64,000 nt of DNA from an uncultured bacterium (GTDB lineage: Bacteria > Krumholzibacteriota > Krumholzibacteriia > LZORAL124-64-63). Under the pieces are notes generated by a model, which saw nothing but the letters and a program-made list of their open reading frames with translations, was not told where the DNA came from and ran no database searches. The position numbers were made by a program, and so were the translations under genes. Location: NCBI GenBank assembly GCA_903859215.1, contig CAIOLW010000036.1, forward strand, positions 94,987 through 158,986. Reading direction: 5' to 3'. Of the stretch, positions 12,701-30,800 are shown one piece after another. Position 1 is the first letter of the stretch, and the number at the start of each line of letters is the position of its first letter.

Positions 12701-13801
12701 TCACACGGCGAATTTCAGTTCATGCCGCCTCTGCAACGCCAGTACTCGGGTGTCGATTGTTTTCCTGTAGTATTCGCCCCATCGCTGCGGCAGGTCGATC
12801 CGGCTGACGAACAGGCGTCGGCTGAGCACCTCATCAACTTCCAGTCGGTGGTCCAGCATCCCTCGTTCCTGCGCCGGCGTGGGGCTCCACCGCACCTTTT
12901 CACGTCGTCCCTTCATGTAGTTGCGCCACACCAGGAACACCGCCAGCCGTTCCGCGCTTGCCTGCCGACGCTTCGACCAGGCGATCGTCTCCCGTTTGTG
13001 GTTCGCGCTGCTGTGTCGCAACAGGAGATCGGCGAGATTCACCGGGAACAACGGGTTCCGGCCATCACGGCGTTCCCGGCTCGACGTCACGATGTGCGTC
13101 ACCTGGCAGTCCAGTGTCGCGATCGCCCGGGGGTACGTCCGGTGGTCGTCGCTCAGCACGGTCAGGCGCGGTTGGCTCCCTGCCACGACCTGCAGCAGGT
13201 GGGTGACGTCCTTGAGCACCGCTTGGGGGTCCGGTCGCCCGTGCTGCGCTTCGAGGCGCTCCCGCTTGAGCTTCTGGGCGGGAGTCATGGAGCCGGAACG
13301 GCGAACTTCACTGTCGGTGAAATAGACGATGAAGTCGGACCCGGGTTCGATCGCCAAATGGTGGTGGAAGGGCCAGTACTGGGAGTGCTCGAAGGTGACG
13401 AAGCCGTCGATCGCCACGGTTGATACCGGAGGGGCTTTGCGCATCAGTTGAGTGTGCAACAGCAGGCAGTGGCGCCCAAGGCGTCCGAGCTGACGATCGA
13501 CGGTCGATGGCGCCACGCGCAGGTCGCGCGCAATCTGCCGGTTGGCCATTCCGCCGGTGGTCTTGGTCATCAGCAGGGGTAAGACGTCCGGCCGCTTCAG
13601 CCAATAGGTCGCGCTGAAGGTCTGGGAGCTGAAAGAGCGCCGGCAGTGCTTGCAGATCCACCTGGGGATACGGTGTGGGGCCAGGCGTCGCCCGTAGTAG
13701 CCAATGCGTTTGTAGCGGGAAACGGAATCGAACTGCTTGTGATACATGCAGTTCGGGTTGGGGCAGTGCGGCGGGATGTAGTGTGCGGTGTTGTTGTCCA
13801 T
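12701..13801 (-). CDS. Zinc-ribbon DDE-type transposase
   Basis: This is a 366-residue transposase and the only gene of the element. Its N-terminus is a zinc ribbon (CPNPNC, residues 13-18; CKHC, 50-53, then RRSFSSQTF). A helix-turn-helix follows (GGMANRQIARDLRVAPSTVD, about 83-102). The catalytic core shows AIDGF (Asp132) and VLSDDH (Asp218/219), with Glu271 or Glu284 as candidates for the third acidic residue. N-terminal zinc ribbon plus HTH plus DDE recalls the IS1/IS1595/ISL3 group, but I cannot place it in a named family. The ATG is preceded by a hairpin at the right end of the element. The gene appears intact, with no stop or frameshift. Confidence 0.75.
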   Translation of the reverse strand: MDNNTAHYIPPHCPNPNCMYHKQFDSVSRYKRIGYYGRRLAPHRIPRWICKHCRRSFSSQTFSATYWLKRPDVLPLLMTKTTGGMANRQIARDLRVAPSTVDRQLGRLGRHCLLLHTQLMRKAPPVSTVAIDGFVTFEHSQYWPFHHHLAIEPGSDFIVYFTDSEVRRSGSMTPAQKLKRERLEAQHGRPDPQAVLKDVTHLLQVVAGSQPRLTVLSDDHRTYPRAIATLDCQVTHIVTSSRERRDGRNPLFPVNLADLLLRHSSANHKRETIAWSKRRQASAERLAVFLVWRNYMKGRREKVRWSPTPAQERGMLDHRLEVDEVLSRRLFVSRIDLPQRWGEYYRKTIDTRVLALQRRHELKFAV

Positions 13802-13855: not shown

Positions 13856-14998
13856 CTAGCGGATCATCGGGAAGGGCGATTCGCCCGTTGCCCCATGGCA
13901 ACTCAAACACGCCCTCCCCTCGTCATGCCCCTCATCATGGCACTTCTTGCACAACTGCCCCTGCCCGTTCCCCGGATAAGGGCTCGGCAACGGGTACGAC
14001 CCCGACGCCACGCCGTCATCCACCAGTCGCACCAGCCGGAAATCCCAGCGACCCGCCGCCGGCGCCGACGAGGCGTGCGCGCGGTGGCAGGTCAGGCACA
14101 TGATGCGGTCGGTCGCCACCGGCCCGTCCGTCCCGGTGGTGGATGTCGCCGGGCCCTCGAAGGGCACCTGGGGGATGTATGCGGTCGCCGTCATCCCGCC
14201 CCTGGGATTCGCGTCGCCTTCGTAGCGGTTGTACCGGTTGCGGACGTCGTCCTCGAGGTTGTCGTCGACCGGATGCCGGAAAGCCGAGCCGCTGCCCTCG
14301 CTGTGGTATTGCCCGTGGCAGTTCGCGCACCACAGGGACATGCCGGCGTGGTAGGCCGTGTGCCGGTTCGGCGATTCGCCGGCGCCGGGGTTCGTGATAT
14401 CGAGCCCCTCGGCGACGGGCGCCGGGTAGACGAAGACGGCCAGGCCGCCCTGAACCGGCCCCGGGCCGTGCAGCATGCGGTAGCCGCCGCCGCCGTGGGG
14501 GTCGTGGCAACTGGTGCAGCCGAGGCTGGCCGATGGGAAGGTCCCGCCGGGGGCGCGATCCCAGCGGGAGTCCGCGCCGGTGCCGCGATCCGGCGAGTTG
14601 ATGCAGTGGCCCGCGGCGTCGCCCGCGATGGCGCTGCCGGCGCCGTCGTTGAGGTTGTCCTCGAGCAGCCACGTGAAGTTTCCGGCCCCGTATTCGGTCG
14701 GGGGCGCCATCGGCGTCGCGCCGAAGACGCCGTTGCCGCGGCCGTGGCAGGTCAGGCAGAGGTCGGTGGACGATTCGGCGGCCAGCAGCGGGCGCGAGCC
14801 GTCGAGGGCGATCTGGCCGGTCGCGGCATCGTGCATCAGGTGGCAGATGGCGCAGGAACCGACGCTGCCGCCGTGCACGACGGCGGCGGCGGGTGCGGGC
14901 ATCGCCGCCAGCCCGAAGAACGCCGTACCCGCTGCGGCAAGCACGGCGCGAACCCGGGGGCCGCGGCGGAAGTGATGGGCCATGTGGGACAGTGACAT
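13856..14998 (-). CDS. OmcS-like multiheme c-type cytochrome with a seventh heme motif
   Basis: This is a 380-residue secreted cytochrome with seven CxxCH motifs (CAICH, CLTCH, CTSCH, CANCH, CLTCH, CKKCH, CLSCH). The first six align in order and context with the six of OmcS, the Geobacter nanowire subunit, as I remember its sequence: VHGGSVG..C..CH..H at the mature N-terminus, APGGTFP...L.CTSCHDPHG, GMSLWCANCH, CLTCHRAHAS and a final C.KCH. The His three residues after the first heme motif (His56, mature position 16 if cleavage precedes Val41) corresponds to the OmcS residue that ligates a heme in the next subunit. The seventh motif lies in an added tail (EGRACLSCHGATGE). ATG 14998 is chosen; a TTG at 15016 would extend it by six residues. 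It lies just downstream of the hexaheme paralogue. Confidence 0.85.
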   Translation of the reverse strand: MSLSHMAHHFRRGPRVRAVLAAAGTAFFGLAAMPAPAAAVVHGGSVGSCAICHLMHDAATGQIALDGSRPLLAAESSTDLCLTCHGRGNGVFGATPMAPPTEYGAGNFTWLLEDNLNDGAGSAIAGDAAGHCINSPDRGTGADSRWDRAPGGTFPSASLGCTSCHDPHGGGGYRMLHGPGPVQGGLAVFVYPAPVAEGLDITNPGAGESPNRHTAYHAGMSLWCANCHGQYHSEGSGSAFRHPVDDNLEDDVRNRYNRYEGDANPRGGMTATAYIPQVPFEGPATSTTGTDGPVATDRIMCLTCHRAHASSAPAAGRWDFRLVRLVDDGVASGSYPLPSPYPGNGQGQLCKKCHDEGHDEGRACLSCHGATGESPFPMIR

Positions 14999-15079
14999 CG
15001 GTTCGGCCGTCTCCAACCAGGGTGGGTGTTGCCCGTTGATTCTAACACGGAGATCGAGCCCCGGCTACTTTCCAAAACG

Positions 15080-15118
15080 CCGATGGGCCCGGCGGGAATC
15101 TCCCGCCGGGCCCATCGG
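15080..15118 (-). terminator. Strong intrinsic terminator after the OmcS-like gene
   Basis: An 18-bp perfect stem (CCGATGGGCCCGGCGGGA, 15080-15097, with its complement 15101-15118) has a 3-base loop. On the minus strand it is followed by CGTTTTGG. It lies 30 bases past the stop of the hexaheme gene and so could cap abundant cytochrome mRNA, with partial read-through to the heptaheme paralogue. Confidence 0.85.
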
Positions 15119-15147
15119 TTCAGCCTTTGGTCAAGGCCCTACCTCGA

Positions 15148-16239
15148 CTACAGCTTGTCGAAGGCGTCCTTCGCATGGCACTTGTTGCACAGCGACTTCT
15201 GCTCAGCCACGAACGTGTAGCCGTAGTACTTCCGGTCCACGTCGGTCTGGATGAAGCCGGTGTCCGTCGCCAGCGGGTGCGACTCGGACATGATGCGGGC
15301 CGTCATGTCCCAGCGCGCGCTGTCCTGGAACGGCGAGGCATGGGCGCGGTGGCAGGTCAGGCACATGACTTCGTCGGTGCCCGTGGGGCCCTGCGTGTAG
15401 TTCGTCGAGTTGACGGTGGCCACGTCGACGGTGACGGCCTCGAAGGGCACCAGGCCCCAGTACGAGGTGGCAGCGTTGCCGCTGACCAGGTCGTCCGTGC
15501 TCACGTAGGCGTTGTAGGCGCCGGCGATCGACGAGCCCATCGCGCGGGTCGGGTGCACGAAGTTGGTCGTGTTGTCGTCATGGAAGTTGGCGTGGCAGTT
15601 CGCGCACCACTTGCTCATGCCGCTCTTGTACACGGTGTGGGCGACGTTGGACTCGATGCCCGTGCCCGACGTGGTCGTGCGGCTGTTGCCCTTGGCCAGG
15701 GGAGCCGGGTTGGCGAACGAGTAGCGGCCGCCGGCGTAGTAGGGGCCCATCTCGGTGCCGTACAGCAGGCGGAAGTTGTCGTTGCCGTGGGGGTCGTGGC
15801 AGCTGGTGCAGCCCATCTGGCCGCTGACGAACGTGCCGCCCGGCGCGCTGGCCAGCGTGGCGTCGGCAGCGAGGCCCTTGGTCGGCGCCACGATGTTGTG
15901 GCCGTGGCTGTCGCCCTTGCTCATGACCGTCGAGCCGCGGCTCACCCAGCTGAACGTGCGGCTGACCCAGTAGAAGTCGCCGCCGGCGCCGAAGCCGGTG
16001 CCGCTGGCAAACTGACCGTAGGCGGCGTGGCAGCGCAGGCAGGTGTCGCTGGCGGTGCCGGTGTTCAGCAGGAACTCGTTGCCACTGGGATGAGCGGCAT
16101 CCACGAGGGCGCCATTCTGGCTGTTGTGCATGGTGTGACAGCCGGCGCAGTAGGCAACGCCACCGTCATGGAATGCGAGCACCGAGCTGGCCGACAGGCC
16201 GAGCGCCAGCACCAGGGCGATCTTGATGAGAGTCTTCAC
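15148..16239 (-). CDS. OmcS-like hexaheme cytochrome, probable nanowire subunit
   Basis: This 363-residue protein has a clean signal peptide (MKTLIKIALVLALGLSASSV then LA) and six CxxCH motifs: CAGCH, CLRCH, CTSCH, CANCH, CLTCH, CNKCH. Its resemblance to Geobacter OmcS, recalled from memory, runs over the full length: FHDGGVA.C.GCHTMHNS at the mature start, GGDFYWVSRTFSW, GHNIVA, SAPGGT, CTSCHDPHG, GMSKWCANCH, a VPFE segment, CLTCHRAHASPF and the final LCNKCHAKD. OmcS polymerises into micrometre-long conductive filaments; His16 of one subunit ligates a heme of the next, and the equivalent His (residue 38 of the precursor) is present. GTG 16239 has GGAGG 8 bases upstream. It follows the beta-propeller gene and is capped by an 18-bp hairpin. 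Confidence 0.9.
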   Translation of the reverse strand: MKTLIKIALVLALGLSASSVLAFHDGGVAYCAGCHTMHNSQNGALVDAAHPSGNEFLLNTGTASDTCLRCHAAYGQFASGTGFGAGGDFYWVSRTFSWVSRGSTVMSKGDSHGHNIVAPTKGLAADATLASAPGGTFVSGQMGCTSCHDPHGNDNFRLLYGTEMGPYYAGGRYSFANPAPLAKGNSRTTTSGTGIESNVAHTVYKSGMSKWCANCHANFHDDNTTNFVHPTRAMGSSIAGAYNAYVSTDDLVSGNAATSYWGLVPFEAVTVDVATVNSTNYTQGPTGTDEVMCLTCHRAHASPFQDSARWDMTARIMSESHPLATDTGFIQTDVDRKYYGYTFVAEQKSLCNKCHAKDAFDKL

Positions 16240-16352: not shown

Positions 16353-17321
16353 CTATTCAACTGCCCCGTCGGCCAGGACGCTGAATACCTGCACACGGCC
16401 TTTGAAACCCTGCGCCACGTAGAGGTGGCCGGTCCCATCCGCCGCCATCGACACCGGGTGATAGAAGGCGCCCGGGGCGTCCCCGATCGACCCGTATTCG
16501 TACTTGAACTCGTGTCCGGCATTGAAGGCCAGGATCTTGTGCCGCAACTGGTCCAGGACGAACAGGCCGCCGTCGGGCCCGGCAGCGGCCGCTACGGGGA
16601 AGAACATCCGGCCCGGCGACGAGCCGACCCGACCGAACGACTCCAGCTGCTTGCCTTCCGCACTCAGGACCAGCACCACGTGCAGGTTGCCGCCCGGCAC
16701 GCAGATCGTGCCATCGCCCAGTTCCGCGGGACGGCCGAGGTCCATTTCCAGCGACTTGTCGTCGGACTGCCCGTCGCCGATGGTCGCCGACCACAGGAGG
16801 GCGCCGGTGTTCGCATCGTGCTTGGCCAGGACGCCGCTGGTCGTGTCGAGCGTCAGGTAGTTCCCGTCGTGCATGACGACCAGGTGGCCCGGCTTCCAGC
16901 CGTTCGCCGGCGCTTCCGGCCGGTAGCCGTCGGGCTCGCCGTAGATGTCGAGCCGGGAGATCGTGCCGCGCTGGCCATCGACCAGCGTCGTCGCCACCAG
17001 CCGTCCTTCGTGGTCGACCGTGCCGTCATTCGGGCTCAGGAGGTTCGCGAAGCCGCCCGAGCGGAAAGTCTCGACGCCGGCGGCATTGAACACGTGCAGG
17101 GCGCTGTAGGCGGATTCGGTGACGCAGACTTCGCCGTGGTTCGCGTCACAGGAAACCGCCACCGGCCGCGCCTGGCCGTTGTGGTCCTGGGAGAGTTCCA
17201 GCGTGCGCTCGTACCGGATCGACATGGCACCCGCGACAGACGCGAACCCCGACAGCGCTGTTAGCGCGGCAACACCTGCAACGGTCATCTTCAGGTGGTG
17301 ATGGGGGCGATGGGGGTTCAC
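16353..17321 (-). CDS. Secreted NHL/beta-propeller protein
   Basis: This 322-residue protein has a His-rich N-terminus and a hydrophobic signal (MTVAGVAALTALSGFASVA, cleavage near VAGA). The mature part is built of repeated blades of about 45 residues with NHL-like character: PVAVSCDANHGEVCVTESAYSAL, FANLLSPNDGTVDHEGRLVA, FFPVAAAAGPDGGLFVLDQL and YHPVSMAADGTGHLYVAQGF are recognisable blade cores. NHL-repeat genes stand next to omcS/omcT in Geobacter as I recall, so it may assist assembly or surface attachment of the cytochrome filament; it carries no CxxCH itself. The start may be GTG 17321 or ATG 17288. It is the first gene after a strong promoter (17387-17414) and the cytochrome gene follows 113 bases later. 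Confidence 0.75.
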   Translation of the reverse strand: MNPHRPHHHLKMTVAGVAALTALSGFASVAGAMSIRYERTLELSQDHNGQARPVAVSCDANHGEVCVTESAYSALHVFNAAGVETFRSGGFANLLSPNDGTVDHEGRLVATTLVDGQRGTISRLDIYGEPDGYRPEAPANGWKPGHLVVMHDGNYLTLDTTSGVLAKHDANTGALLWSATIGDGQSDDKSLEMDLGRPAELGDGTICVPGGNLHVVLVLSAEGKQLESFGRVGSSPGRMFFPVAAAAGPDGGLFVLDQLRHKILAFNAGHEFKYEYGSIGDAPGAFYHPVSMAADGTGHLYVAQGFKGRVQVFSVLADGAVE

Positions 17322-17516: not shown

Positions 17517-17600
17517 AAAAAAGTGCGGCAGGCCGGTGACCCGACCTGCCGCGCCGTCTTGCCGGACCCTGCGGCGGCGGTGTGGAACCCCGCCGCAGGG
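17517..17600 (-). terminator. Tandem hairpins ending the giant cytochrome transcript
   Basis: On the minus strand the first hairpin uses 17591-17600 with 17567-17576 (10-bp stem, CCCTGCGGCG type). The second uses 17541-17552 with 17525-17536 (one wobble pair) and is followed by six T residues (17517-17522 read in reverse). The second is a standard intrinsic terminator; the first has no T-tract and may be a 3'-end stabiliser or backup. Confidence 0.7.
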
Positions 17601-17612
17601 CTTGTTTCCAGG

Positions 17613-20600
17613 CTAGGAACCATCCCGCTTGGCGCGCAGCTTGTCGGTGTGGCAGCCGATGCAGAGCGCGCCTTCGGGGTTGTCCCGGAGGAACCGCACG
17701 AACGCGGTGCCGTGCGGCTCATGGCAGCTGACGCAGGTCATCTTGCCCCCGGTGCGCGGGTCCTTGAAGTTGTCGCCCATCGGGTGGTCGGTGTGGTCCC
17801 GGTAGGCATGGCAGTTCAGGCACACCTCCCGGATCTTCGTGCCGTCGGCCGCCTTTTCCGCCACCAGGTGCGGATTGTGGCAGACCGTGCATTCCTTGCC
17901 GTCAACCAGCGGGTGCTTGTGCGCCGCGGTCCGGTTCGTTTCCACCTTGGCCTGGTGGCACTTCCCGCAGACGGCCGACTGCTGCCGCGGCAACAGCGGC
18001 GCGTACGGTGCCGTGTGTGGTGAATGGCAGATGGTGCAGGCTTTCTCGCCCTTCAGCGGCGCATGCATCTCTCCGGTCTTGAGGTCCTCCTTCACGCCGT
18101 CGTGGCACCCGAAGCACAGCTCCGGCTGGCGCGCCTTCGTGGCGGTGGTGGTGCCGACATGGCACGCCGCGCAATTGCCCGCGGCGAACGGCTTGTGCAC
18201 GTTCTCATGCGGCAGGTTGGCCAGCTTGGACGCATGGGGCGTGTGGCAGCCGGCGCAATCTGCGGTCGCCACCGGGAAGCCCTTGTGCTTGGCAGCCAGG
18301 GACGCCGGTTCATGGCATTTCACGCACAGCACCTTCGTCTCGGCGATCAGGCTCATGGCCACGGGGCCCCCGTGCGGGCTGTGGCAGCGTGTGCAGGCGC
18401 CCGTCTTGAAAGGCGCATGCACAACCGGCAGCTTCTTCAGTTCGTCGATCTTCTGGTGGCAACTTGTGCAGAGCACGGCGGCCGGCTGCGTCAGCAGTTT
18501 CGGTTCGGACGAAGCGTGGGGGTTGTGGCACGCTTCACAACGACCCTCACGGAACGGGGTGTGCGCCAGCTCGGGCTTCGGCGCCAGCCCGGCCAGGTCG
18601 TGGCAGGCGGCGCAGGTGTCGGCCGTCCGCTTGCTGTTGAGCTGGTGATCGCCCCGGGCCACGTGCGGGTTGTGGCAGGCGGTGCATTCCCCTTCACCGA
18701 ACGGGGGATGCACGGTCTTGCCCTTGGCCGTCGCATCGGGCAGGCCGTCGTGGCACTGCGTGCACGTGGCGGTCTGGTTGACGATCGGCTGGGCGTCCAC
18801 ATGACACGTGGCACAGTCTCGGTCCGCGAAGGGCGGGTGCTCCTTGGCCACCAGCAGGCCCTTCACGGTCGAGTTGTGCGGCTCGTGGCAACCGAGGCAG
18901 TTCAGCCCGGCCGCCTCGCGCCCGAGGTGCTTGTCGGCGAAACCCTTGCTCTTCTCGTCGTGGCACTGGAAGCACAGCGCCGGGACCTTTGCCCGCAGGA
19001 AGGCGTGCCCCTGGCCACCGTGAGGCAGGTGGCAGGACAGGCATTCGCCCTGGCTCGGCGGGTGGATCGACACGGCGTTCTTGGGCGCGGCGATGGACTC
19101 GTGGCACAGGCCGCACAGCTTCGTGGCGTCCGTCGACAGCAGCGCCTTGCGGGGGGCGTTGTGTGGGTCGTGGCAGGCCGTGCAGTTGCCCTTGGCCACG
19201 GGTTCGTGGCCCTGCCAGTTGTCGCCGGTCGGCTGGCCGACATCGTGGCATCCGGCACAGGTGGCGGCCACGGGCTGCCGCAGCAGTGCGCGCTCCGCGC
19301 CGCCGTGCGGCAGGTGGCAGTCCACGCAGGCGCCGTCGGCCGCGGGCGGGTGCACCGTACCGCCGGCCGGCTGCTTGGAGAGATCACCGTGGCAGTCCGC
19401 GCACAAGGCGGCCGCGGGCTTCTTCAGAAGCGCCGGCTGGTCTGAAGTGTGCGGCAGGTGGCAGGCCAGGCACTCGCCCCGCGCGGCGATGTCGTGCGTG
19501 TGCGGTGCCGCGAGTTCCATCGCGACCTTCGTGTGGCAGCCCAGGCACAGGTTCCCGGGTCCCTTGACCAGGAGCTTCTGCTCCTCGGAACTGTGCGGGT
19601 CGTGGCACACCGTGCAGGCCTGCTTGGCGACGGGAGCATGCACCAGTCGGCCTTCCACGGGCGGCACCGGCACGATGTCGCCGTGGCAGCCCACGCACAG
19701 CTTGTTCGTCTCTTCCTTGAGCAGCTTCGGCCTCTCGCCGCCGTGGGGGGCGTGGCACGTGGTGCAGTTGCCCTCGGCGGCCGGCGCGTGCCGGTTCGTG
19801 TGGTCGAACGCGGTCTTGTCGTGGCACTCGAGGCACAGCTTGCGCTGGCCGGAAACCAGCATCCCGGGCCGTGCGCTCCCGTGCGCGGCATGGCACTTCG
19901 TGCACTCATGCTCGGCGGCAGGCGGATGGGCGACCTTGGTCGTGGTCGCCGGGTCGTCGTGGCACTGCACGCAGAGGTCGGCGAGCGGTACGGTGAGGGC
20001 GCCGGGCGCGGCTCCCGGTGTCGCGTCGTGGCACGAGGAGCATTCTCCGCCGGCCACGGGTGCGTGCAGCACCGCGTAGTCGAGGTGCTCGCCGTCGGAG
20101 CCGTGCGGGTCGTGGCAGGACACGCAGCCGGCGACGCCGCCCTTGTCGCCGTGCACCTTGGCGAGCTTCGCCTGGTCCTTGTGACAGGACAGGCACAGCT
20201 GGTCGCTCGGCTGCTTCAGCAGGCCGGCGTTGGCCGAAGCGTGGGGGTCATGGCACGCGATGCAGCCGCCCTGCGCCAGCGCCTTGTGCGGGTGCTTGCG
20301 GTTGAACGGGACGCGGTCGTGGCAGGCGAAGCAGCTCTCGTCGCCGGCCGCCTTCAGCAGGTTCGGCTGGCCCGTGCCGTGCGGGTTGTGGCAGCCCGTG
20401 CAGTCGCCCTGGCGCAGCGGGGCGTGCACGGGACCGCTCTTGAGGATCTCGCCGAATTCCTTGTGGCACTCCAGGCACAGTTCGCGCCCGGTGGCCTTGA
20501 GGACGAGCTTGCCGATGACGCCGTGCCGCCGGTGGCAACCCTCGCATTCGCGCGCGGCGAAGGGCGCGTGCGCATTGCGCGTGCTGACCTTCTTGATCGC

Positions 20601-20747
20601 TTCCTGGTGGCAGTCCGCGCAGGCCTTGCTCTTGAAGCCGCCGGCAGCTCGGGCCGGCCCGGCGTGGAACGCGACCGAGGCCACCAGCGCCAGCGCCAGT
20701 GCGGCCGCGCGAAGGCGGCGGGGGTGTACATCGATGCAGCGAATCAC
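17613..20747 (-). CDS. Giant multiheme cytochrome c with 42 CxxCH motifs
   Basis: This is a 1044-residue secreted protein with a signal peptide (AAALALALVASVAFHAGPARA) and, by my count, 42 CxxCH motifs, or about one heme per 24 residues. The repeat is a paired-motif unit of about 50-60 residues: HAP...G.C..CH.PHG....LL.......LC..CH, matching the doubled-CXXCH families. It is iterated about twenty times with little else. Extra histidines (HAP, HPP, CHDPH) supply the second axial ligands, so most hemes are probably bis-His. There is no membrane anchor or lipobox, so it is periplasmic or exported. GTG 20747 has AGGAGG 7 bases upstream. It ends a run with the barrel, CsgG-like and prolyl isomerase genes, 20 bases after the latter. 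Likely role: long-range electron wire or charge store between inner membrane and surface. Confidence 0.9.
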   Translation of the reverse strand: MIRCIDVHPRRLRAAALALALVASVAFHAGPARAAGGFKSKACADCHQEAIKKVSTRNAHAPFAARECEGCHRRHGVIGKLVLKATGRELCLECHKEFGEILKSGPVHAPLRQGDCTGCHNPHGTGQPNLLKAAGDESCFACHDRVPFNRKHPHKALAQGGCIACHDPHASANAGLLKQPSDQLCLSCHKDQAKLAKVHGDKGGVAGCVSCHDPHGSDGEHLDYAVLHAPVAGGECSSCHDATPGAAPGALTVPLADLCVQCHDDPATTTKVAHPPAAEHECTKCHAAHGSARPGMLVSGQRKLCLECHDKTAFDHTNRHAPAAEGNCTTCHAPHGGERPKLLKEETNKLCVGCHGDIVPVPPVEGRLVHAPVAKQACTVCHDPHSSEEQKLLVKGPGNLCLGCHTKVAMELAAPHTHDIAARGECLACHLPHTSDQPALLKKPAAALCADCHGDLSKQPAGGTVHPPAADGACVDCHLPHGGAERALLRQPVAATCAGCHDVGQPTGDNWQGHEPVAKGNCTACHDPHNAPRKALLSTDATKLCGLCHESIAAPKNAVSIHPPSQGECLSCHLPHGGQGHAFLRAKVPALCFQCHDEKSKGFADKHLGREAAGLNCLGCHEPHNSTVKGLLVAKEHPPFADRDCATCHVDAQPIVNQTATCTQCHDGLPDATAKGKTVHPPFGEGECTACHNPHVARGDHQLNSKRTADTCAACHDLAGLAPKPELAHTPFREGRCEACHNPHASSEPKLLTQPAAVLCTSCHQKIDELKKLPVVHAPFKTGACTRCHSPHGGPVAMSLIAETKVLCVKCHEPASLAAKHKGFPVATADCAGCHTPHASKLANLPHENVHKPFAAGNCAACHVGTTTATKARQPELCFGCHDGVKEDLKTGEMHAPLKGEKACTICHSPHTAPYAPLLPRQQSAVCGKCHQAKVETNRTAAHKHPLVDGKECTVCHNPHLVAEKAADGTKIREVCLNCHAYRDHTDHPMGDNFKDPRTGGKMTCVSCHEPHGTAFVRFLRDNPEGALCIGCHTDKLRAKRDGS

Positions 20748-20767: not shown

Positions 20768-22117
20768 TCAGTGGGCCGCGGGGGCGGCGGGCTGCGCGGT
20801 GGCCTTCTTGAATTCCTCGATCGCCTTCAGGACTTCCGCCTCGGCGCCGGGCAGCACGACAACGGGGGAAGCGGCCTTGAGCCGGGCCAGGATTTCGACG
20901 AGGTGGTCGCGCGTCGCGTCCCGTTTCATCATCGCCAGGACCTGGTCCCGGCACGACTCCAGCGGCTGGGGCTGCCCGCCCTCGAGGCCGCTGATCTGCG
21001 CCACGACCCAGCCGTCGGGGACCTCGTACGGTTCCGGCACCGCGTTCAGCTTGAGGTCGGCCGGTTTGAGGCCCATCTCCACGGGCTGCAGCCAGACATC
21101 GGGGAACGGGGGCGGGCCCTGGATGACGCGCTTGTCGTTCTCGGCCAGCCATTTGAGGGCCGTGCCCGACTCGAGCCGCGCGCGCAGGTCGCCCGCGATC
21201 TCCTTCGTCTTGACCTTGAGGCTGCCGACCTTCACGCGTGACGGCATCAGGAGATCGCCCGTGTGCCCCCGGTAGTAGTGCGAGACTTCGGCGTCGGCCG
21301 GCTTGAAGTCGAATTCCAACAGGACGCGCAGCGCCTCTTCCTGGATCGAACTGCGCTCCATGCGCTGGCGGAGAAGCACCATCCCGGGCTGGCGATCCAT
21401 CTTCTGCGCCCTCATCTGGGCGTTCGCCAGCACTTCCTCGACGTACGAGCGCAGGCACAGGTCGCGTTTTTCGGCGGCATCGGGCTTGCCGACCAGGCCG
21501 TGGTATTGCTGGAACCGGAGTTCACGCGAGAAATCGGCAACCGTCAGCTTGCGTCCGTTCACCAGGTTGGCGAGCACCTCAGTGCTTTCGCGCAGCCGCT
21601 TCTGCACGGCGGGGTCGGCCGACCCGTAGTCCAGCGACTTCAGCAACATGGAATCGACCGTGACGTTGAAGGTGCGGGCCAGCCCGGCGAGATAGCCCTT
21701 CACCGCGTCCCGACGCTTGTCGTGCACGGCGGGAGCATCCGCGGGGATCGACAGCGCGACCGAGTCGAGCAGCGCCTTCATGCATTCGTGGCGCACGGCC
21801 TCGTTGCCCTCGTTGCGGACGGCGAACTCCTGGTCCAGGCCCATGCGGTAGCCTTCCTGGATGATGAGTTCGTTCTGCGTCAGCCGCTCGAGGATCGCTT
21901 TCGGATCCGCGAATTTCGCGGCCACGTTGTCCGCGTTCCTGGCCTGCATGAGGCCCAGTTCGAGGTCCAGTTCGGCCGTCGTCACCGTGTCGGTCCCGAC
22001 GGTGGCGAGCGGCACGGGCCGCTGGTCGGCCGCGCGGGCCGCGGCTGCGCTCACGAGCGCGAACACGGCGATGAGCGCCAGGTTGGACCGCAACGGGCGA
22101 AGTGGGCGGGTGGTCAT
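20768..22117 (-). CDS. Periplasmic peptidyl-prolyl isomerase / chaperone (SurA/PpiC-like)
   Basis: This is a 449-residue protein with a signal peptide (NLALIAVFALVSAAAARA), then a SurA N-terminal-like helical part (VGTDTVTTAELDLELGL, ERLTQNELIIQEGY) and a C-terminal parvulin-like domain: VKVGSLKVKTKEIAGDLRARL, then VPEPYEVPDGWVVAQISGL near residues 360-380 and the helix LESCRDQVLAMMKRD. It should fold or escort exported proteins in the periplasm. Genes for prolyl isomerases accompany omcS-type loci in Geobacter as I recall, so it probably serves the multiheme cytochromes or the barrel. ATG 22117 overlaps the stop of the upstream gene (ATGA) and has GGAGG 9 bases upstream. It ends in a short Ala/Pro tail. 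Confidence 0.75.
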   Translation of the reverse strand: MTTRPLRPLRSNLALIAVFALVSAAAARAADQRPVPLATVGTDTVTTAELDLELGLMQARNADNVAAKFADPKAILERLTQNELIIQEGYRMGLDQEFAVRNEGNEAVRHECMKALLDSVALSIPADAPAVHDKRRDAVKGYLAGLARTFNVTVDSMLLKSLDYGSADPAVQKRLRESTEVLANLVNGRKLTVADFSRELRFQQYHGLVGKPDAAEKRDLCLRSYVEEVLANAQMRAQKMDRQPGMVLLRQRMERSSIQEEALRVLLEFDFKPADAEVSHYYRGHTGDLLMPSRVKVGSLKVKTKEIAGDLRARLESGTALKWLAENDKRVIQGPPPFPDVWLQPVEMGLKPADLKLNAVPEPYEVPDGWVVAQISGLEGGQPQPLESCRDQVLAMMKRDATRDHLVEILARLKAASPVVVLPGAEAEVLKAIEEFKKATAQPAAPAAH

Positions 22118-23166
22118 GAGGTAGGATCCTCCAGCAGGTGTTTGAAACGCGGCCACAGGTTCTCGGCGCCTTCGCGCATCTGGTCCAGTTCGGTCATCGG
22201 GTGGATGACGCCGAACCAGCCGGTCGGCGTTCCTCCCGGCATCATGATGCTCGACGCCGCCCGGATCCGGCCGGTGCGCAGGTCGAGCAGGCGCAGCGTG
22301 ATGGTCATGTCGGTCACCTGGCGGGGACCGGCAGCCGGGCCGTCGGCCAGGTAGTCGGGCGCGGCGTTGGCGTTGCCGTCGACCTGCCCGAAGGACACAA
22401 CCTCGGGCAATACGACCCACGTGATGCCGAAGCGTTCCGCCAGCTGGGCCCTGCCTTCCTTGTCCAGGCGCGCGGGGTCTCTTCCCGTGTCCAGGGCCGA
22501 GCCCGCCGCCAGCGCGGGGTCGATGACGGACCAGTTCGTATCGGCCACGGCCGCCGCCAGGAGGCAGGCGGTCGCCGTGCGCACGGCCTGCGCATCCAGC
22601 CCGATGCCCCGGCTGGACAGGATCAGGAGCGGCGCGCCGCCTCGATGGCCGGGCGCGTCGGGCGGCATGGCCCGCCGCAGGGCGTCGGCCAGCGACCGCT
22701 GCCAGGTGCCCTCCGAAACAGTCGCCGCGGCGATGCCGAGCGCCTCGACGCGTCCCTGGCCCGTGCCGATGGCCCGTACCGTCGCGGTGAGCGATCCGTT
22801 GTCCGCCAACACGGTCACCGCCAGCAGTGTTTCCGCTCCGAGCTCGCTGCGCAGGTCGGCCAGGAAGGCGGCAGGCAATGCGGCGCAGCTGCGCACGCGG
22901 TGGCGCCGCACCAGGTCCTCGGTCCCCGCGCGGTCGGCCGCCGGACGATGGGAAGCTCCCGTCAAGGCTGTCAGGATCTCGAGGGCTGCCTGGCGGATCA
23001 CGGCGGCATCAGGCGGCAGGCCGGGCATCGGCGCGCCTTCGAGGTTGAACACGATGGCGACGGACTCGGGTTCGTCGGCACGGGCCGCGCTGGGCACGGA
23101 CAGGAGCGCCGTCAGGAGCAACCCGGCAGCCAGGCCCAGGTGAGTTCCGTGCCTGAGGGTCTTCAT
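22114..23166 (-). CDS. Secreted CsgG/TolB-like protein of unknown function
   Basis: This is a 350-residue exported protein (signal peptide LGLAAGLLLTALLSVPSAARA). The mature part contains two similar-looking alpha/beta stretches: DAAVIRQAALEILTAL...LGAETLLAVTVLADNGSLTATV, and AVRTATACLLAAAVADTNWSVIDPALAA...ERFGITWVVLPEVVSFGQ, ending in TITLRLLDLRTGRIRAASS. That strand-helix order, with a conserved 'level of component is variable, type of response' layout, resembles the nucleotide-free TolB-N/CsgG fold. Assignment is tentative. Its ATG shares one base with the stop of the lipoprotein gene before it (TGATG), and its end overlaps the prolyl isomerase start, so the three are translationally coupled. 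Confidence 0.5.
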   Translation of the reverse strand: MKTLRHGTHLGLAAGLLLTALLSVPSAARADEPESVAIVFNLEGAPMPGLPPDAAVIRQAALEILTALTGASHRPAADRAGTEDLVRRHRVRSCAALPAAFLADLRSELGAETLLAVTVLADNGSLTATVRAIGTGQGRVEALGIAAATVSEGTWQRSLADALRRAMPPDAPGHRGGAPLLILSSRGIGLDAQAVRTATACLLAAAVADTNWSVIDPALAAGSALDTGRDPARLDKEGRAQLAERFGITWVVLPEVVSFGQVDGNANAAPDYLADGPAAGPRQVTDMTITLRLLDLRTGRIRAASSIMMPGGTPTGWFGVIHPMTELDQMREGAENLWPRFKHLLEDPTS

Positions 23167-23747
23167 CAGAACAACGTCTCCAGCGCGGCGCGGACATTGG
23201 CGCGCGCCACGTCGTAGATGCCGGCCGTGCCGCCGCCGAAGAACTTCCGCAGGAGCGACGAGCCGTCGGTCCGGGTCTGCGACGACCAGATCGTGCCGCC
23301 GGTCTGCGTCTCGCACAGCTGGTAGACGCTGGTCACGACCTCGGACGGGTCATGGCTGGTGCGGTCCAGGCCGTATTCCTCGATGGTGCCGAAGAAGATG
23401 CCCTCGGCGCCGAGGCGCTTGCCGAGGTCCTTGATCTGCTCAGGGCTCAGGATGCGGTCGAGCGGGAGCTTCATTTCCGCCACGGCCGCTAGGGTCGCGC
23501 CGCGATCGATCACTTCGAGGTCCTTGTTGGCCAGCACTTCGGTCACGAAGATCGACTGCACGCGCTGTGCAGCGTAGACGTCCTGCGTGAGGTTGTAGAA
23601 CGGGTAGACGGCGACGCGCCGGATGAAGCTGAAGTCGACGTCCTCGCGCACGTACTGGCTGGCCCTGGGCGCACAGCCGATCGCGGCGAGGCATACGGCG
23701 AGCAACAGGATGGTCGTGCCTCTGACAAGGCGTCGCGTGCTCTTCAT
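23166..23747 (-). CDS. CsgG/GNA1162-like outer-membrane lipoprotein
   Basis: This is a 193-residue lipoprotein with lipobox LAAIGC (Cys25). The mature protein follows the CsgG/GNA1162 (DUF799) pattern: VDFSFIRRVAVYPFYNLTQDVYAAQRVQSIFV near the start, a LEVIDRGATLAAVAEM strand-helix, then LGKRLGAEGIFFGTIEEYGL and WSSQTRTDG. CsgG itself is the outer-membrane channel that exports curli subunits; the shorter relatives lack a proven pore. In this cytochrome locus it might take part in secretion of filament subunits, or act as a periplasmic brace for the barrel. It lies 57 bases after the barrel gene and overlaps the next gene by one base. Confidence 0.65.
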   Translation of the reverse strand: MKSTRRLVRGTTILLLAVCLAAIGCAPRASQYVREDVDFSFIRRVAVYPFYNLTQDVYAAQRVQSIFVTEVLANKDLEVIDRGATLAAVAEMKLPLDRILSPEQIKDLGKRLGAEGIFFGTIEEYGLDRTSHDPSEVVTSVYQLCETQTGGTIWSSQTRTDGSSLLRKFFGGGTAGIYDVARANVRAALETLF

Positions 23748-23804: not shown

Positions 23805-26012
23805 TCAAAATGTCCAATAACCCCGCAACTGGAATCCGAACGGCCAGCTTTCGCGGCCGAGGAGGCGCTCGTAGCTCTTTTCGGCGCTTCCCGAGAGGGT
23901 CAGGCGGGGACGTGCCTGCCAGTCGACCCCGACGCTGCCGCCGCGGCGCAGGTCGTCGGCCCGCGAGTCCTGGTAGTCGTTCGCCGAGAAGGAGAGCAGC
24001 ACGCTGCCGCCCCGCAGGGGGATCCAGGACAGGGAATTGCGGTAGATCCAGTCTTCCCTCTCGCGCCGCTGGCCGACAGCCTGCCCGGACCACGACAGCA
24101 GGGGCGTGATCTCCCACGAGGCGTCGATCTCCGTCTCGGCGAACGAGGTGAACCCGGCGCCTGCTTCCTGGCCGACCCAGCGCGTGGTGCGCACGAAGTC
24201 CAGCCGCATGCTCGGTCGCGGGGAACTGCGGACCTCGGACGACACGACCCACGAATCGGAATTGCCGTCCAGGGCCGCACTGGTCCGCCAGCCGCGGGTC
24301 ACCTTCTGGTTGAACGTCAGCGCCGGCGCTGCGCGCCAGGTGCCGTCAGCCATGACCGATTCGGTCACCTGGCGGACGCTGTAGGTGTTGTCGTTGGTGC
24401 GCACCCAGGCCATGTGCGCGCCGAAGCGGTCGGTGTTCCGCCGCTGCAGCGAGACCTGGCGGGAGTTGGAGTCGGTCCTGAGCCTCTTCGGGCTGTGCTC
24501 GGCGCTCTCCTGGTACTGGCCGGTCAGGGACCAGCCCCCCAGCAGCCAGGAAGCGAGCACGCCGCCGTTCGTCCGCTCCTGGCGTCCATCGCCGGCGCGG
24601 TCGCGACGGTCGAGGGCGATGTCGCCGTGGACTCGCAGCCGGGACGAGAGCCTGACTTCGACGCCGCCCGTCGCGGTCGTCCGCTCCTGGCGCGAACGCA
24701 ACTCCGGCTGGGCTGTCGTCGCATTCTCCAGAATCTCGAACTCGGTGACGAAGAGGTCCCCGATCGTGGGGCCGATCTTCCGGTCCACAAGCTTGAGGCG
24801 CCGGTGCGTTGCGCCGCCGACGAAGGTGATTTCCCAGCCTTGCCGACCCGTCTCGGACTCCACGTAGCGGGCGCTCCAACTGCCGGCCGGGACCGGGGAG
24901 CCCCAGTCCCTGCCTTCTGCCTCGTCGCAGAAATACAGGTCCCACTGCAGCATTTCCGGCAGGAACGTGACCTTGCGGTCGACATACAGGAACGCGGACA
25001 CCATCGCGACCGGTTCCCCGAAGTCGAGGTAGATGTTGCGGAAGTCGCCGCCGTAGTCGCGACCGGGCGTCGCGTTGTCGCCGAGGTTGATCACCGTGGG
25101 CGTCGAGCGGTCGTTGTCGAAGAGCGCCGGCACGGGCTGAGGCTGGTTCTCCAGGGGGTCGAGGAAACCCGGCGTGTCGTCCAGCCAGAAGCCTCCGGCG
25201 AGCGGCGGCAGGTACTGCTGGCCCGCATCGGCGCTGAAAGTGTTGCGCTGGTTGAATCGACGGTGGTTGATCGACCAGGTCGCGTGGACTGCCTTGTCGC
25301 GAACGAGGTCCCGGTCACCACGAATCTGCAGTTGCTGCGTGTCGTAAACCGTTCGCTGCGAGAGCGTGATCGAATTCAGGTCGACGCGGGAATAGGTGAA
25401 CTCCACGTCTTCGTGGCGGGTCAGGTCCAGGCGCAGCCGGCCGGTGCCGTTGCGCTCGCGGTTCTCGCGATCCTCCGCGTTGCCGCGCCGCCAGCTCGAG
25501 TCGTCCTGATAGTTGGCATCGCCGGACAGGTGCCCGAAACGACCGCTGGTCCAGAGGCCGAATTCGAGGTTGTCGTCGCGCAGCGTCGGCAAACCGGTGT
25601 TGTCCTGGTCGACGCGATTGCCACGGGCGAACAGGCTGGCGCGCAACGGCGTGGACTGCCAGGACAACGTGGCCGACGGCGTCAGCGTGACGGTCGTGTT
25701 GTCGACGCTGGTGCCGGCGGCCGTGCCCTTCAGCAGTTCGCGGCGGGCCAGGTACTGCAGCCTGAAGGAAGCGTTGGGAGACAAGCGGATGGCCTGCTCG
25801 AGGCCGAAGATCTCCCATAGGTTGTCACTGCTGTAGGCCTGGTCGCCGGAACGCCCTTCCTGGTGAAGGGTGCGCACATCCACGCGGCCGTCCAGCGCCA
25901 CAGCCGGCGACCCCACGACGGTGACCAAGGCCAGGCCGACCAGCGCGGAACCGATCGCCAGCGAGGCGCGCCCGCGGCGACTGCGACGCGAATGTTCGTT
26001 CCGTGGCAGCAT
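23805..26012 (-). CDS. Large outer-membrane beta-barrel, candidate porin of an electron conduit
   Basis: From ATG 26012 this encodes 735 residues: an arginine-rich head (RNEHSRRSRRGR), a hydrophobic signal segment (ASLAIGSALVGLALVTVVGS), and a mature part of many short amphipathic strands ending LRGYWTF, with Phe last, as outer-membrane proteins do. Around residues 240-430 there is a globular insert (DYGGDFRNIYLDFGEPVAMV, YVESETGRQGWEITFVGG) that looks like a discoidin/F5-8-type beta-sandwich strand set. The frame is open upstream to a TTG at 26171. Flanked by cytochrome genes on both sides, it is a candidate barrel around a multiheme cytochrome, in the manner of MtrB or PioB, although I see no direct sequence similarity to those. 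Confidence 0.6.
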   Translation of the reverse strand: MLPRNEHSRRSRRGRASLAIGSALVGLALVTVVGSPAVALDGRVDVRTLHQEGRSGDQAYSSDNLWEIFGLEQAIRLSPNASFRLQYLARRELLKGTAAGTSVDNTTVTLTPSATLSWQSTPLRASLFARGNRVDQDNTGLPTLRDDNLEFGLWTSGRFGHLSGDANYQDDSSWRRGNAEDRENRERNGTGRLRLDLTRHEDVEFTYSRVDLNSITLSQRTVYDTQQLQIRGDRDLVRDKAVHATWSINHRRFNQRNTFSADAGQQYLPPLAGGFWLDDTPGFLDPLENQPQPVPALFDNDRSTPTVINLGDNATPGRDYGGDFRNIYLDFGEPVAMVSAFLYVDRKVTFLPEMLQWDLYFCDEAEGRDWGSPVPAGSWSARYVESETGRQGWEITFVGGATHRRLKLVDRKIGPTIGDLFVTEFEILENATTAQPELRSRQERTTATGGVEVRLSSRLRVHGDIALDRRDRAGDGRQERTNGGVLASWLLGGWSLTGQYQESAEHSPKRLRTDSNSRQVSLQRRNTDRFGAHMAWVRTNDNTYSVRQVTESVMADGTWRAAPALTFNQKVTRGWRTSAALDGNSDSWVVSSEVRSSPRPSMRLDFVRTTRWVGQEAGAGFTSFAETEIDASWEITPLLSWSGQAVGQRREREDWIYRNSLSWIPLRGGSVLLSFSANDYQDSRADDLRRGGSVGVDWQARPRLTLSGSAEKSYERLLGRESWPFGFQLRGYWTF

Positions 26013-26217
26013 GGGTTGGACTGCAGCCTCGGCTGGGGATGCTTCGGCGACAGGCCTCGGCCGCGGGCGCTCCCGGGTGCCGGGGCGCGACGGCGCTTCT
26101 AAGTCCTTGTCAGCCGCAGGATTTCGACCGTTACGAGTTAAAAAAATAACAAATCGGACGAAAATAAGCAATCATGAACTTGAGGAATCGCGGCGGGTTA
26201 GGAAATGCCCGGATCGC
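26013..26217 (-). other. Gap between the heptaheme cytochrome and barrel genes
   Basis: The barrel reading frame stays open through most of this gap as far as TTG 26171 but encodes a proline/arginine-rich stretch without a signal peptide. A TTGCTT and TTATTT pair (16-base spacer) on the minus strand next to an A/T run around 26130-26175 could be a promoter for the barrel operon. Nothing else stands out. Confidence 0.35.
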
Positions 26218-27063
26218 CTAGGGGACATTCGCCATCACGGCCATGAGGCGCGTGTCGGCGGACTGGCCGGAGTTCCTCAACTGGTGGCAGCCGAGGCAAA
26301 GTTCGGGCTGCGACGGGAAGGCGACCAGGAGGTCGCGCTGACCGCCGGTCAGCGAGTGGCAGGTCTGGCATTCGACCTTGCCGTCGAACAGGCGCAGGCG
26401 CGGGTCGATGGGTGAACGCAGCCGGCGCTCGTCCCGGCCGGCGCCGGCGACGGCCATGACCCCGAGGGGATGCGTGGCGTGCTGGTCGAACGTCAGCGAC
26501 TGCCCGCCGGTCTCCGCCTGCCAGGTCGAGCCGCCGCCACTGCCGTGGCAGTTCAGGCAACCCTGGCTCGGCGACTGGCCGGCCAGCAGCGCGGCATCGC
26601 GATGGTACAGAGCGGCTGCGGCGCGGTGTGCGGTCGAGAGCTTGCCGAGATCGGCCCCGGGCTCGTGGCAGCCCGCGCAATGGGCGGGCACGCCTTCACC
26701 GAGGCCCTGGACCGACATCTTCAACTCGCCGAGCGATGTCTTGAGGCGACCCAGTTCGTGGAACGTATGGCAACCCGCGCAGTCGGCCGTGGGGTTGTCG
26801 TGGAAGCCGAGCTGGACCATGGCTGGCGAGTCCTTCGCCGCGAGGTCGCGGTGGCAGCTGCGGCAGGTCCGCGAGCGGGGGTCGGGGTCGTTCGGACCGG
26901 CAGCCGCCACGGCCCTCGCGGTGGCGCCCTGGTGGCACCGCGAGCACGCGATGCCTTCATGCGGGTCCGTACCCGACGCCGAAAGCCCGTTCGCAACCAG
27001 GGGGGTCGCGGACAGGATCAGTGCCGATACGACGGCGGGGAGCGTGCGCAAGGTGTCCTTCAT
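26218..27063 (-). CDS. Heptaheme c-type cytochrome, periplasmic
   Basis: This is a 281-residue secreted cytochrome (signal TLPAVVSALILSATPLVA) with seven CxxCH motifs: CSRCH, CRSCH, CAGCH, CAGCH, CLNCH, CQTCH, CLGCH. It lacks the OmcS pattern; instead it carries HEGIACSRCH, FHDNPTADCAGCH, and a long stretch without motifs (about residues 180-235) before the last two. Heme spacing and length suggest a periplasmic or conduit-embedded electron carrier. It is the first gene of the minus-strand series that continues with the barrel. ATG 27063 begins the signal peptide; an earlier in-frame start lies in AT-rich non-coding sequence. Confidence 0.85.
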   Translation of the reverse strand: MKDTLRTLPAVVSALILSATPLVANGLSASGTDPHEGIACSRCHQGATARAVAAAGPNDPDPRSRTCRSCHRDLAAKDSPAMVQLGFHDNPTADCAGCHTFHELGRLKTSLGELKMSVQGLGEGVPAHCAGCHEPGADLGKLSTAHRAAAALYHRDAALLAGQSPSQGCLNCHGSGGGSTWQAETGGQSLTFDQHATHPLGVMAVAGAGRDERRLRSPIDPRLRLFDGKVECQTCHSLTGGQRDLLVAFPSQPELCLGCHQLRNSGQSADTRLMAVMANVP

Positions 27064-27337
27064 GCCGCAAGGTTTCGGATCATTTCTCAAATGCTTTAGT
27101 ATTTTGTTGTTTTGTAATATGGGCCGACAACGCCATGACGGGTCACTTGCAGGACACAATCTGTATTCTGCGGGATACGCGCCGGTGTGTGCGTGTTAAC
27201 ATGGTGCGGAGCGAAACACCGTGCGGACAGGGGCTTGGCGCTCCGCGGGTTGCCATCACCACCCGGCGACTTGCGGCACAGGGATTGCAACCCTTCCCTG
27301 CCCGTGGTCCATCACCGGTACCAACGAAGGTTTCCCG
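27064..27337. other. Divergent intergenic region
   Basis: This region separates the leftward cytochrome series from the rightward kinase operon. The first 60 bases are markedly AT-rich (GTATTTTGTTGTTTTGTAATAT and neighbours), as expected of a promoter for the minus-strand genes, but I cannot define confident -35/-10 pairs on either strand. GAAGG lies 7 bases before ATG 27338. Confidence 0.4.
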
Positions 27338-27857: not shown

Positions 27858-30800
27858 ATGAGCTGGTCCCGGGCCCGCGCGACGGCCGTGGCTGGAATCG
27901 CCTGCGTGGCGGCCCAGGGCGTCGTCCTGACGCTGGCCAGCCGCAGCGCGGAAGCGGCGTCGCTTCCGTGGCGCGGCGTTTTCGCGTTGCTGGCGGTCGG
28001 GCCGTTGCTGACGGGCGTGCGTGCGGCGCGGCGGCCCGGACATCGGGCCTGGGGTCTGGCGACCGTCGTCCTGGCTGTCGGTCTGGCCGCGGGTGCGCTC
28101 TTCCTGCCGAAACCAGGTGCGCACCAGGCCCGGAACGCCGTCGCGCAGGCGCCGACCGAAGCGGTCGGAAAGATCGCCGCAGACCTCGAGCGCGATGTAG
28201 CCCGGCTCGCCGCCCTGGCTGCGCGGGAGGCTTCCGGCCTGACCGGGGCGGTGACCGGCGCCGGGGGCGAAGCCTTCCGCGCGCTCGCTCCGATCCCCGC
28301 GACGTGGGCGGCGGGCGACGCGGAACTGCGCCTGCCGGTCGCCGCCGCGCTCTGGCGCGACGGCCAACTCGCCGCCTGGACGGCCGGCGCCCTGCCCCTG
28401 TCGTCCCCGGCTGATGGGTCTGTCGCTGCGGTTTCGCGGCTCGAGCCGTACCGCGACGGCTGGGTGCTGCGTCGCCTGCAGCCGTGCCCGGGCGGAGCGT
28501 TGCTCGAACTGCAGTGGATGCTGCCGCGCGCGGACGACGTGCGCGGCGTGTACGGCCTGGAAGTCACTGTCGGCGAGGGGAGATCCGGCGCCGCGTTCCG
28601 CGACGTGGACCTCGACGGCAACACCACGCCGATGGTCGTGCGGGTGCGCGCAGCGGTCGGGGCTCCGGCGACGGCGGCAGCCTCCGCCGGCGCGCGCCTT
28701 TTGGCGCTGATGCTGGTGTCGTGGGCCGTGCTCCTGGTGGCGCAGGCGGCGCTGACCGGCCGGGGCCAGGTCGTGTTGGCAGCGGCGCTGCTTGCGCGCG
28801 CCTTCCTGGCCGCCGTCGATCTCCGCCAGTGGCTCGTGGCGTCATTTCCCGCGGTCGAGATGCCGACCCCTCCGGGTTCCTGGTCCAGCCTGATCGACCC
28901 GTCCTACTTCGCGACACCCGCGTTCGGCGGCTGGTTCGCGACCACCGCCGACGCGCTGCTGACGGCGATCCTGCTCGCGGTGGGTGTGCGCCATGTCCAC
29001 GCGCGGCTGGCGCGGCGGCTGGAGTCCGGCCCACGGCGTCTCGACAGACGCGGATCATGGTGGCTGGCCGCCGCCTTCGGCGTTGTTGCCGCCGTGTTGC
29101 TGCCGTCCCTGCGCGCGTTCGTGATCCTGCTGGCCGACAACGCTAACCCCCGCCTGATCGGTCCCGGCGTCTCCCTGTCGCTGCTCACGTTCTGGGGGCT
29201 GCACGTCGTCCTGCTGCTGCTGTCGGTCTCGGCGCTCGGTCTTCTCGGGCTCCTTGCGGTGGGTGCGCGCTCGACGGCCCGCGGCGCGACGCCGGCACGG
29301 GTCGGCGGCATCGCGGTGTTCGTGTTGGCTGTGGCCGGGGCGTGGCTGGCCCGCGCAGGAACGATGACCGGCGTGCTTGCCGGCGCGCTCGCTGCAGCGG
29401 TGTGGTGGTTCCAGGCCTGGGTGCGGGCGTCCGACGGACGCGGGGCGCGCTTGGCGTGGCCGGCGCTCGTGCTGGTGGCCGCCCTGTGGAACTACGCATC
29501 CTTGCACCACGTCCACGACGCGGCGGAAAGGGCGTGGCTCCAGCGTCGCGCCGGCGAGATCACGGATGACCAGTCGGGCTGGTCCCGCAGCCTCATCCAG
29601 ACCGTGCTCATGGAGATGCAGCAGGTGGACGATGTCGCCCCCGCCGAGACGGTGGATGAACCCTGGCGTGACGAGGCGGCCTGGCGCCTGTACCGGAGTT
29701 CGCTGCTCAATGGCCTGCACTTTGCGGGCCTCGTGGAGATCCTCGATCGCGAGGAGCGCAGCGAGAGCCTGTTCGCTGCGGGTTTCCTGCGCGATTTCCA
29801 CTACGAGACCATGTCACGCTCCGGCTGGGTGACATCCACCGGTGCGGCCGCGGGTCCCGGCGATGATATCGTGTTCCGGTCGGAACGGCGGCTCTACAGC
29901 GGCGGTCAGGAAGACATCCTGGTTGCCGAGGCCCCGCGGCGTTCGGGTCGCGGCTGGCTGCGCGTGGAGGCGCCGCTGCGGTCATGGCGAGTGTCGACGC
30001 TCACCGCGCCCCAGGACAACCCGGATGCCGCCGGCGGCGGCCGTTACCAGCCACGCCAGGAAGTGGATCGCCCGGTCCTTCTCCTGCTGGCCGATGACGG
30101 CGGGTGGCGGGGCTCGGGCGCCGAGGGATTCCCCGGCCCCGATGGCGACGAGCCCGTGGCGCAGTTGCGCGCGGGCCGGCGCGAGTGGGCCGTGATCCCG
30201 GTCGGCGGGCACGACTGGCTCTGCCGCTGGACGTTCGTGCCGGCGGCGGCGGCCCGCGCGCCGGGCGAGGGGTTCCTCATCGGCATCGAGCGGCCGACGT
30301 TCGGCGACACAATGCTCGACGCGTCGCGCATGATCCTCATCGACGTGCTCGTGTTCGTCATGCTCGGGGCGCTGGTCCGGTTCCGGCGGGTCGTCTCGCC
30401 GAGGGGCTGGCAGCCCGGCTTCCAGGAGAAGTTCCTGGCCGGGTACCTGCTGCTGGGGCTGGTCCTGCTGCTCATGGTCGGCCTTTCGGTCGACCGCGTC
30501 GGTTACGAACGGGTACGCGCCGAGGCGCGGCAGCAGGCGCGCGACGGACTGACGATGGCCCTCCAGCAACTGGGCGGCCTGCTGTCCGACCAGGCGCGCG
30601 AACTGGCCGACAGTGGCCGGTTGGACGATGCGTTGCGCGGGTCGGCTGCGGACGCGCCCGTCGATGCCGACCTGCGCCGCGCCGTGCTGTTCGCAGGCGA
30701 TGGCAGCGTGCTCTTCGACGGCTCGTCCATTCCCCTGGCGCCGGCGGAAGCCGCGGCGCTGCTCGAGGCGGCCCGTTCGTCGCCGGCGCTGCTCGTTCGC

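Follow-up and report, generated by a model that had tools for sequence, protein, structure and literature searches.

Filaments of the hexaheme cytochrome OmcS are known from Geobacter sulfurreducens, and a gene on contig CAIOLW010000036.1 of an uncultured Krumholzibacteriia bacterium raises the question of whether a member of a different phylum builds a comparable wire. We examined this gene within a 64,000-nucleotide stretch of the contig, referred to as the window. The first-pass annotation had read the gene as encoding an OmcS-type cytochrome that polymerizes into conductive filaments in a lineage probably of the FCB superphylum. The lineage was correctly recognized, as the host belongs to the Krumholzibacteriia (FCB) and a Candidatus Krumholzibacteriia relative (L007) falls in the same family; three other genomes of this family (L009, L011, and L012) are titled Latescibacterota, Gemmatimonas, and Gemmatimonadales, respectively, and these titles look misassigned. 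Profile matches to the cytochrome family, some of them weak, were recovered in 32 of 80 Krumholzibacteriota genomes. Homologues of OmcS beyond Geobacter have already been published (PMC10954620; Shen et al. 2025, as cited in PMC12977616), as has the widespread occurrence of osc machinery. The locus is best seen as a variant of this known kind of system, one in which 26-heme and 16-heme cytochromes are fused.

The gene product, which we call OmcS1, is translated from a GTG start codon and has six CxxCH motifs (residues 31, 67, 144, 212, 293, and 351) and a mature N terminus of FHDGGVAYCAGCHTMHNS following a signal peptide of 22 residues; translation and motif count confirmed the motifs and signal peptide seen at first pass. 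The stretches GCHTMHNS, GMSKWCANCH, CLTCHRAHAS, and LCNKCHAKD, previously placed in OmcS order, do align in that order, and precursor His38, which is mature His16, shares an alignment column with OmcS His16, bearing out the claim that this residue is kept. The full-length alignment to OmcS proposed as a check was run as a phmmer search over all PDB chains; OmcS (6ef8/6nef) was the sole entry matched (E = 4.9e-55), in two stretches that jointly cover its residues 1 to 407 except for a missing loop at about 151 to 184, with 42% identity across 324 aligned positions. Mature OmcS1 has 341 residues versus 407 in OmcS.

Pfam and NCBIfam searches of OmcS1 yielded generic paired-CxxCH families only, which would also fit a generic periplasmic multiheme cytochrome that resembles OmcS by chance. 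An AF2 model built from 64 sequences (the window and its relatives; pLDDT 87, pTM 0.86) points elsewhere, aligning with the OmcS filament subunit 6ef8 at Z 32.8 and 2.4 Å over 327 residues (VIA-align; Foldseek E = 7e-25), whereas the next-best chain reached Z 5.3. OmcE and OmcZ are polymeric multiheme wires, and OmcE likewise uses an inter-subunit His; OmcE scored only Z 4.1 against the OmcS1 model, and OmcZ was not among its matches. A chance likeness is very improbable given the full-length match to OmcS and to no other PDB entry (E about 5e-55), the distance to the next chain, and the conserved gene cluster; the agreement in overall fold and in cluster content is enough, in our view, to refute a generic identity. 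Sequence, fold, and the full ligand set including His16 agree in upholding the OmcS-type assignment. That OmcS1 belongs to the OmcS/OscC family and is accompanied by a cluster of the osc/oet type is nearly certain.

In a family tree of 123 members, OmcS1 falls within a well-supported clade whose 48 rows come from Krumholzibacteriota, Zixibacteria, Calditrichota, Acidobacteriota, and others; OmcS, OmcT, and OscC are joined with the tail paralogues of Geobacter in a second clade of 54 rows. Since OmcS1 lies outside the latter clade, the tree makes it co-orthologous to OmcS, OmcT, and OscC jointly, and to the tail paralogues; it did not support orthology to OmcS rather than to OscC or OmcT. To our knowledge, OmcS is the only family member proven to polymerize, and we know of no other G. 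sulfurreducens homologue that forms wires. OmcS1 might instead be an OscC-like hexaheme cytochrome that forms no long filaments and acts, singly or in short oligomers, on the cell surface or within the periplasm as part of an Oet-type porin-cytochrome conduit. Its equal relatedness to OmcS, OmcT, and OscC would suit such a role, a published study treats this cluster as the OetABI electron conduit (PMC10553843), and in Geobacter GSU2501/oscC invariably accompanies the osc block whereas omcS does so only in some cases (PMC12977616).

The histidines of OmcS1 argue for a polymer. In the alignment of 64 rows, exactly 12 of the 17 His residues of the mature protein are invariant, namely, the six CxxCH histidines together with H2, H16, H92, H129, H207, and H278, and the invariance of these last six marks them as the probable distal heme ligands. 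In the OmcS structure, His16 is the inter-subunit ligand, which fits an account in which one ligand comes from the neighbor. In that account OmcS has 12 His ligands, the same number as the invariant histidines of the OmcS1 family, with 11 from its own chain and 1, on heme 505 (the fifth), supplied by the neighboring subunit (PMC6584659). OmcS1 shares with OmcS of G. sulfurreducens (GSU2504; PDB 6ef8 and 6nef) the same six hemes, the fold, and all 12 ligand positions including His16; the OmcS filament is known, whereas OmcS1 is known here from its sequence and predicted fold. With Cys and His left aside, no other 19-residue window of OmcS1 is as conserved as residues 1 to 19 of the mature protein (rank 1 of 322), and AF2 confidence is low there; conservation despite low model confidence is what an arm packing against a neighboring subunit should show.

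His16 is present in 92% of the 123 family members. The 10 rows without it include the cluster-tail OmcS-like gene of three Geobacter relatives and none of the OmcT/OscC-position proteins of G. sulfurreducens relatives, which retain it. Because the tail paralogues lack His16, family membership alone does not imply an inter-subunit ligand or polymerization. Their loss of the residue also shows that it can be dropped when not needed, and in a monomeric OmcS1 a His16 invariant across 64 relatives would be useless unless it bound the protein's own heme, and the strong conservation of the N-terminal arm also speaks against that role. We consider an OscC-like monomer or short oligomer unlikely and polymerization of OmcS1 likely. 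Two seven-heme OmcS-like proteins without His16, their genes in divergent orientation, were also observed upstream of the Geobacteraceae omcS cluster (L077:906-2057 and L078:2074-3222, both minus strand).

OmcS1 sits in a cluster of nine same-strand genes homologous to the Geobacter osc/oet cluster (Table 1), transcribed in the order seven-heme cytochrome, barrel, lipoprotein-like protein, OscG counterpart, peptidyl-prolyl isomerase (PPIase), 42-heme cytochrome, NHL protein, OmcS1, and OmcS2. The first-pass annotation had noted neither this cluster, which strengthens its reading of the gene, nor the other OmcS-like genes of the genome. The names OscD to OscK follow PMC12977616 and PMC13194489 and were transferred according to gene order; near relatives (G096, G085, and G152) stood in for G. 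sulfurreducens, which was not one of the matching genomes.

Table 1. Features of the OmcS1 gene cluster in the window, in order of transcription
Feature	Coordinates	Strand	Basis or remark
Seven-heme periplasmic-type cytochrome, cluster head	26218..27159	-	Pfam class III cytochrome; likely start 27063
Outer-membrane beta-barrel with inserted beta domain, OscE/OetI counterpart	23805..26171	-	AF2, hhalign; actual start likely close to 26012
LpoB/GNA1162-like protein with lipoprotein-like signal sequence, OscF counterpart	23166..23747	-	Weak Pfam match
OscG counterpart	22114..23166	-	Position and hhalign; likely start 23166, overlapping neighbors by a few bases
PpiC-type peptidyl-prolyl isomerase, OscH counterpart	20768..22117	-	Pfam Rotamase_2; likely start 22117, ORF open to 22420
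42-heme cytochrome, OscI-type plus OscJ-type fusion	17613..20747	-	blastp alignment with unfused 26- and 16-heme proteins
Terminator-like hairpin between 42-heme and NHL genes	17525..17552	-	Comparable hairpins in L004, L005, and L011
NHL-repeat protein, head type	16353..17321	-	Pfam NHL
OmcS1, OmcS-family hexaheme cytochrome	15148..16239	-	363-aa precursor, signal peptide 1-22; phmmer, AF2 model
Codon of precursor His38 (mature His16)	16126..16128	-	OmcS column match; expected ligand of neighbor's heme 5
Strong hairpin between OmcS1 and OmcS2	15082..15125	-	-37.5 kcal/mol, TTTT following stem; likely terminator or attenuator
OmcS2, second OmcS-like cytochrome	13856..15016	-	phmmer; first ATGs inside listed ORF

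The AF2 model of the barrel (pLDDT 86) has about 30 long strands and matches barrels that include MtrB (6r2q_B, Z 17.7); assignment of the OscE/OetI counterpart to a specific barrel family was dropped, as many unrelated porins match about as well as MtrB. Profile alignment with hhalign indicates firm between-clade homology of the barrel (99.4%) and the PPIase (99.8%) to their Geobacter counterparts, and the OscF counterpart has direct phmmer matches to Geobacteraceae loci (E about 1e-27). The presence of the PPIase, barrel, lipoprotein, and 26- and 16-heme cytochrome sequences beside an OmcS-family gene marks the cluster as osc/oet type, with the OscG counterpart as its weakest assignment and only tentatively homologous to the Geobacter gene (hhalign 63%, E = 7e-5). 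The NHL protein scored 279 bits on the head-type profile versus 126 bits on the tail-type profile; the head type is the one found immediately 5' of omcS in Geobacter relatives, and in G. sulfurreducens, as here, an NHL gene lies directly 5' of the OmcS gene. A counterpart of the seven-heme gene, 81% identical, occupies the same place in congener L118.

The Geobacter relatives have the order NHL, OmcS and its copies, OscD, barrel, OscF, OscG, PPIase, 26-heme, 16-heme, NHL, and OmcS-like gene, and the portion of this order that starts at OmcS and takes in the barrel, both accessory proteins, the PPIase, and the 26-heme cytochrome recurs in many phyla. The window's order is not a simple permutation of this operon, a reading we rejected since its NHL-OmcS pair is of the head type and the tail pair is missing. 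In the Geobacter osc cluster (GSU2500 to GSU2493; Shen et al. 2025, as described in PMC12977616 and PMC13194489), the barrel, the two accessory proteins, the PPIase, and the 26- and 16-heme sequences come in the same order as in the window, whereas the Geobacter cluster also has OscD, a tail NHL gene, and a His16-less OmcS-like gene, none of which was found in the window's cluster. The window differs further in its additional seven-heme gene at the cluster head and in an NHL-OmcS pair that lies 3' of the machinery, apparently in separate transcription units. The Geobacter osc block has been tied to OmcS maturation and secretion (PMC12977616, PMC13194489). OscD, proposed to affect wire morphology, is absent from our cluster, and the genome gave no match to one OscD query, taken from another Krumholzibacteriia genome and searched without a positive control. 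Divergent from the cytochrome cluster is a gene for a 1,557-residue HAMP-domain sensor histidine kinase (27858-32531, plus strand), a possible regulator that is 79% identical to a protein encoded at the corresponding position in a congener; just past the cluster end, an ORF with a weak HTH_38 match (12701-13801, minus strand) is possibly a transposase-like remnant.

One gene of the cluster encodes a 42-heme cytochrome. Residues 1 to 653, with exactly 26 CxxCH motifs, align by blastp with the whole of the 26-heme protein, and residues from about 656 to 1041, with 16 motifs, align with the mature 16-heme protein, the separate comparison proteins being from Geobacter relatives and others. GSU2495 is given as the 26-heme OscI and GSU2494 as OscJ (PMC12977616, PMC13194489); in Geobacter these proteins are separate. 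The fusion is common to at least eight related genomes, with the same fused ORF in L004, L005, L006, L008, L011, and L012 and a 41-heme version in L010, and this recurrence indicates that the ORF is no assembly error. Other genomes, including those of Krumholzibacteriia, keep a separate 26-heme gene (e.g., L026 and L022 to L024), indicating that the fusion is derived. The OetABI conduit of syntrophic sulfate reducers, which have OmcS-like/OmcX genes (PMC10553843), shares with the window a barrel, large cytochromes, and an OmcS-like cytochrome; this likeness is at the cluster level, and no lipobox is evident in either the 42-heme or the seven-heme protein of the window. In Anaeromyxobacter soli, a 2,029-residue, 49-heme ORF was observed immediately 3' of an OmcS-family gene (L080:10499-16588, plus strand); its heme spacing repeats internally, and its N terminus resembles that of a lipoprotein.

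The placement of hairpins suggests separate units for the machinery, the NHL-OmcS1 pair, and OmcS2. Hairpins like the one that follows OmcS1 occur at the same position in L005, L006, and L010 to L012; because shuffled sequence gave a similar number of terminator-like sites in the scan, single hairpins are not proof of termination. OmcS2, encoded directly 3' of OmcS1, also matches OmcS (phmmer E = 4e-23) and retains all 12 ligand histidines; six of its seven CxxCH motifs are in OmcS register, and the seventh, an extra C-terminal motif 14 residues past the sixth, is conserved in L004 to L006. A third OmcS-like gene is present on another contig of the host genome. We regard OmcS2 as a candidate end or adapter subunit. 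A more specific proposal, in which the single 42-heme polypeptide forms a covalent periplasmic heme chain to the wire base and OmcS2 serves as the terminal or adapter unit to the OmcS1 filament, is speculative and on balance unlikely; if true, this would be a streamlined machine with one polypeptide replacing two relay cytochromes.

Taken as a whole, the account that we consider reasonably probable is that this Krumholzibacteriia bacterium builds extracellular cytochrome filaments with OmcS1 as their main subunit and the cluster as their machinery. OmcS1 would be exported by Sec and loaded with heme, helped to fold by the PPIase, and exported by the beta-barrel and its two accessory proteins; it would then polymerize, with the N-terminal arm of each subunit giving His16 to heme 5 of the next, and electrons would cross the periplasm by way of the fused 42-heme cytochrome and the seven-heme one to reach the foot of a putatively conductive wire. 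Even in Geobacter, what OmcS filaments do physiologically is a matter of dispute (PMC11077965, PMC13194489). OmcS1 might instead pass electrons inward through the same cluster, from minerals or partner cells: the cluster has been proposed to serve electron uptake in sulfate reducers that partner methane-oxidizing archaea (PMC10553843), and homologues of the iron oxidase Cyc2 have been reported in Krumholzibacteriota MAGs (PMC9769843). The window holds no feature that fixes the direction of flow, which concerns the use of a wire and not its formation, and we consider inward flow possible though rather doubtful.

The predicted wire system of this bacterium looks real and old. Sequence alone cannot separate OmcS from its Geobacter paralogues. 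In this locus, within a phylum distant from Geobacter, a subunit with a conserved inter-subunit arm is found together with most of the genes for assembly, and the paralogues that lack His16 provide a natural contrast. From the fusion it seems that OscI and OscJ function jointly, the simplest case being that both reside in a single compartment; this would constrain models of electron delivery to the wire, and the compact gene set makes the wire-assembly model testable.
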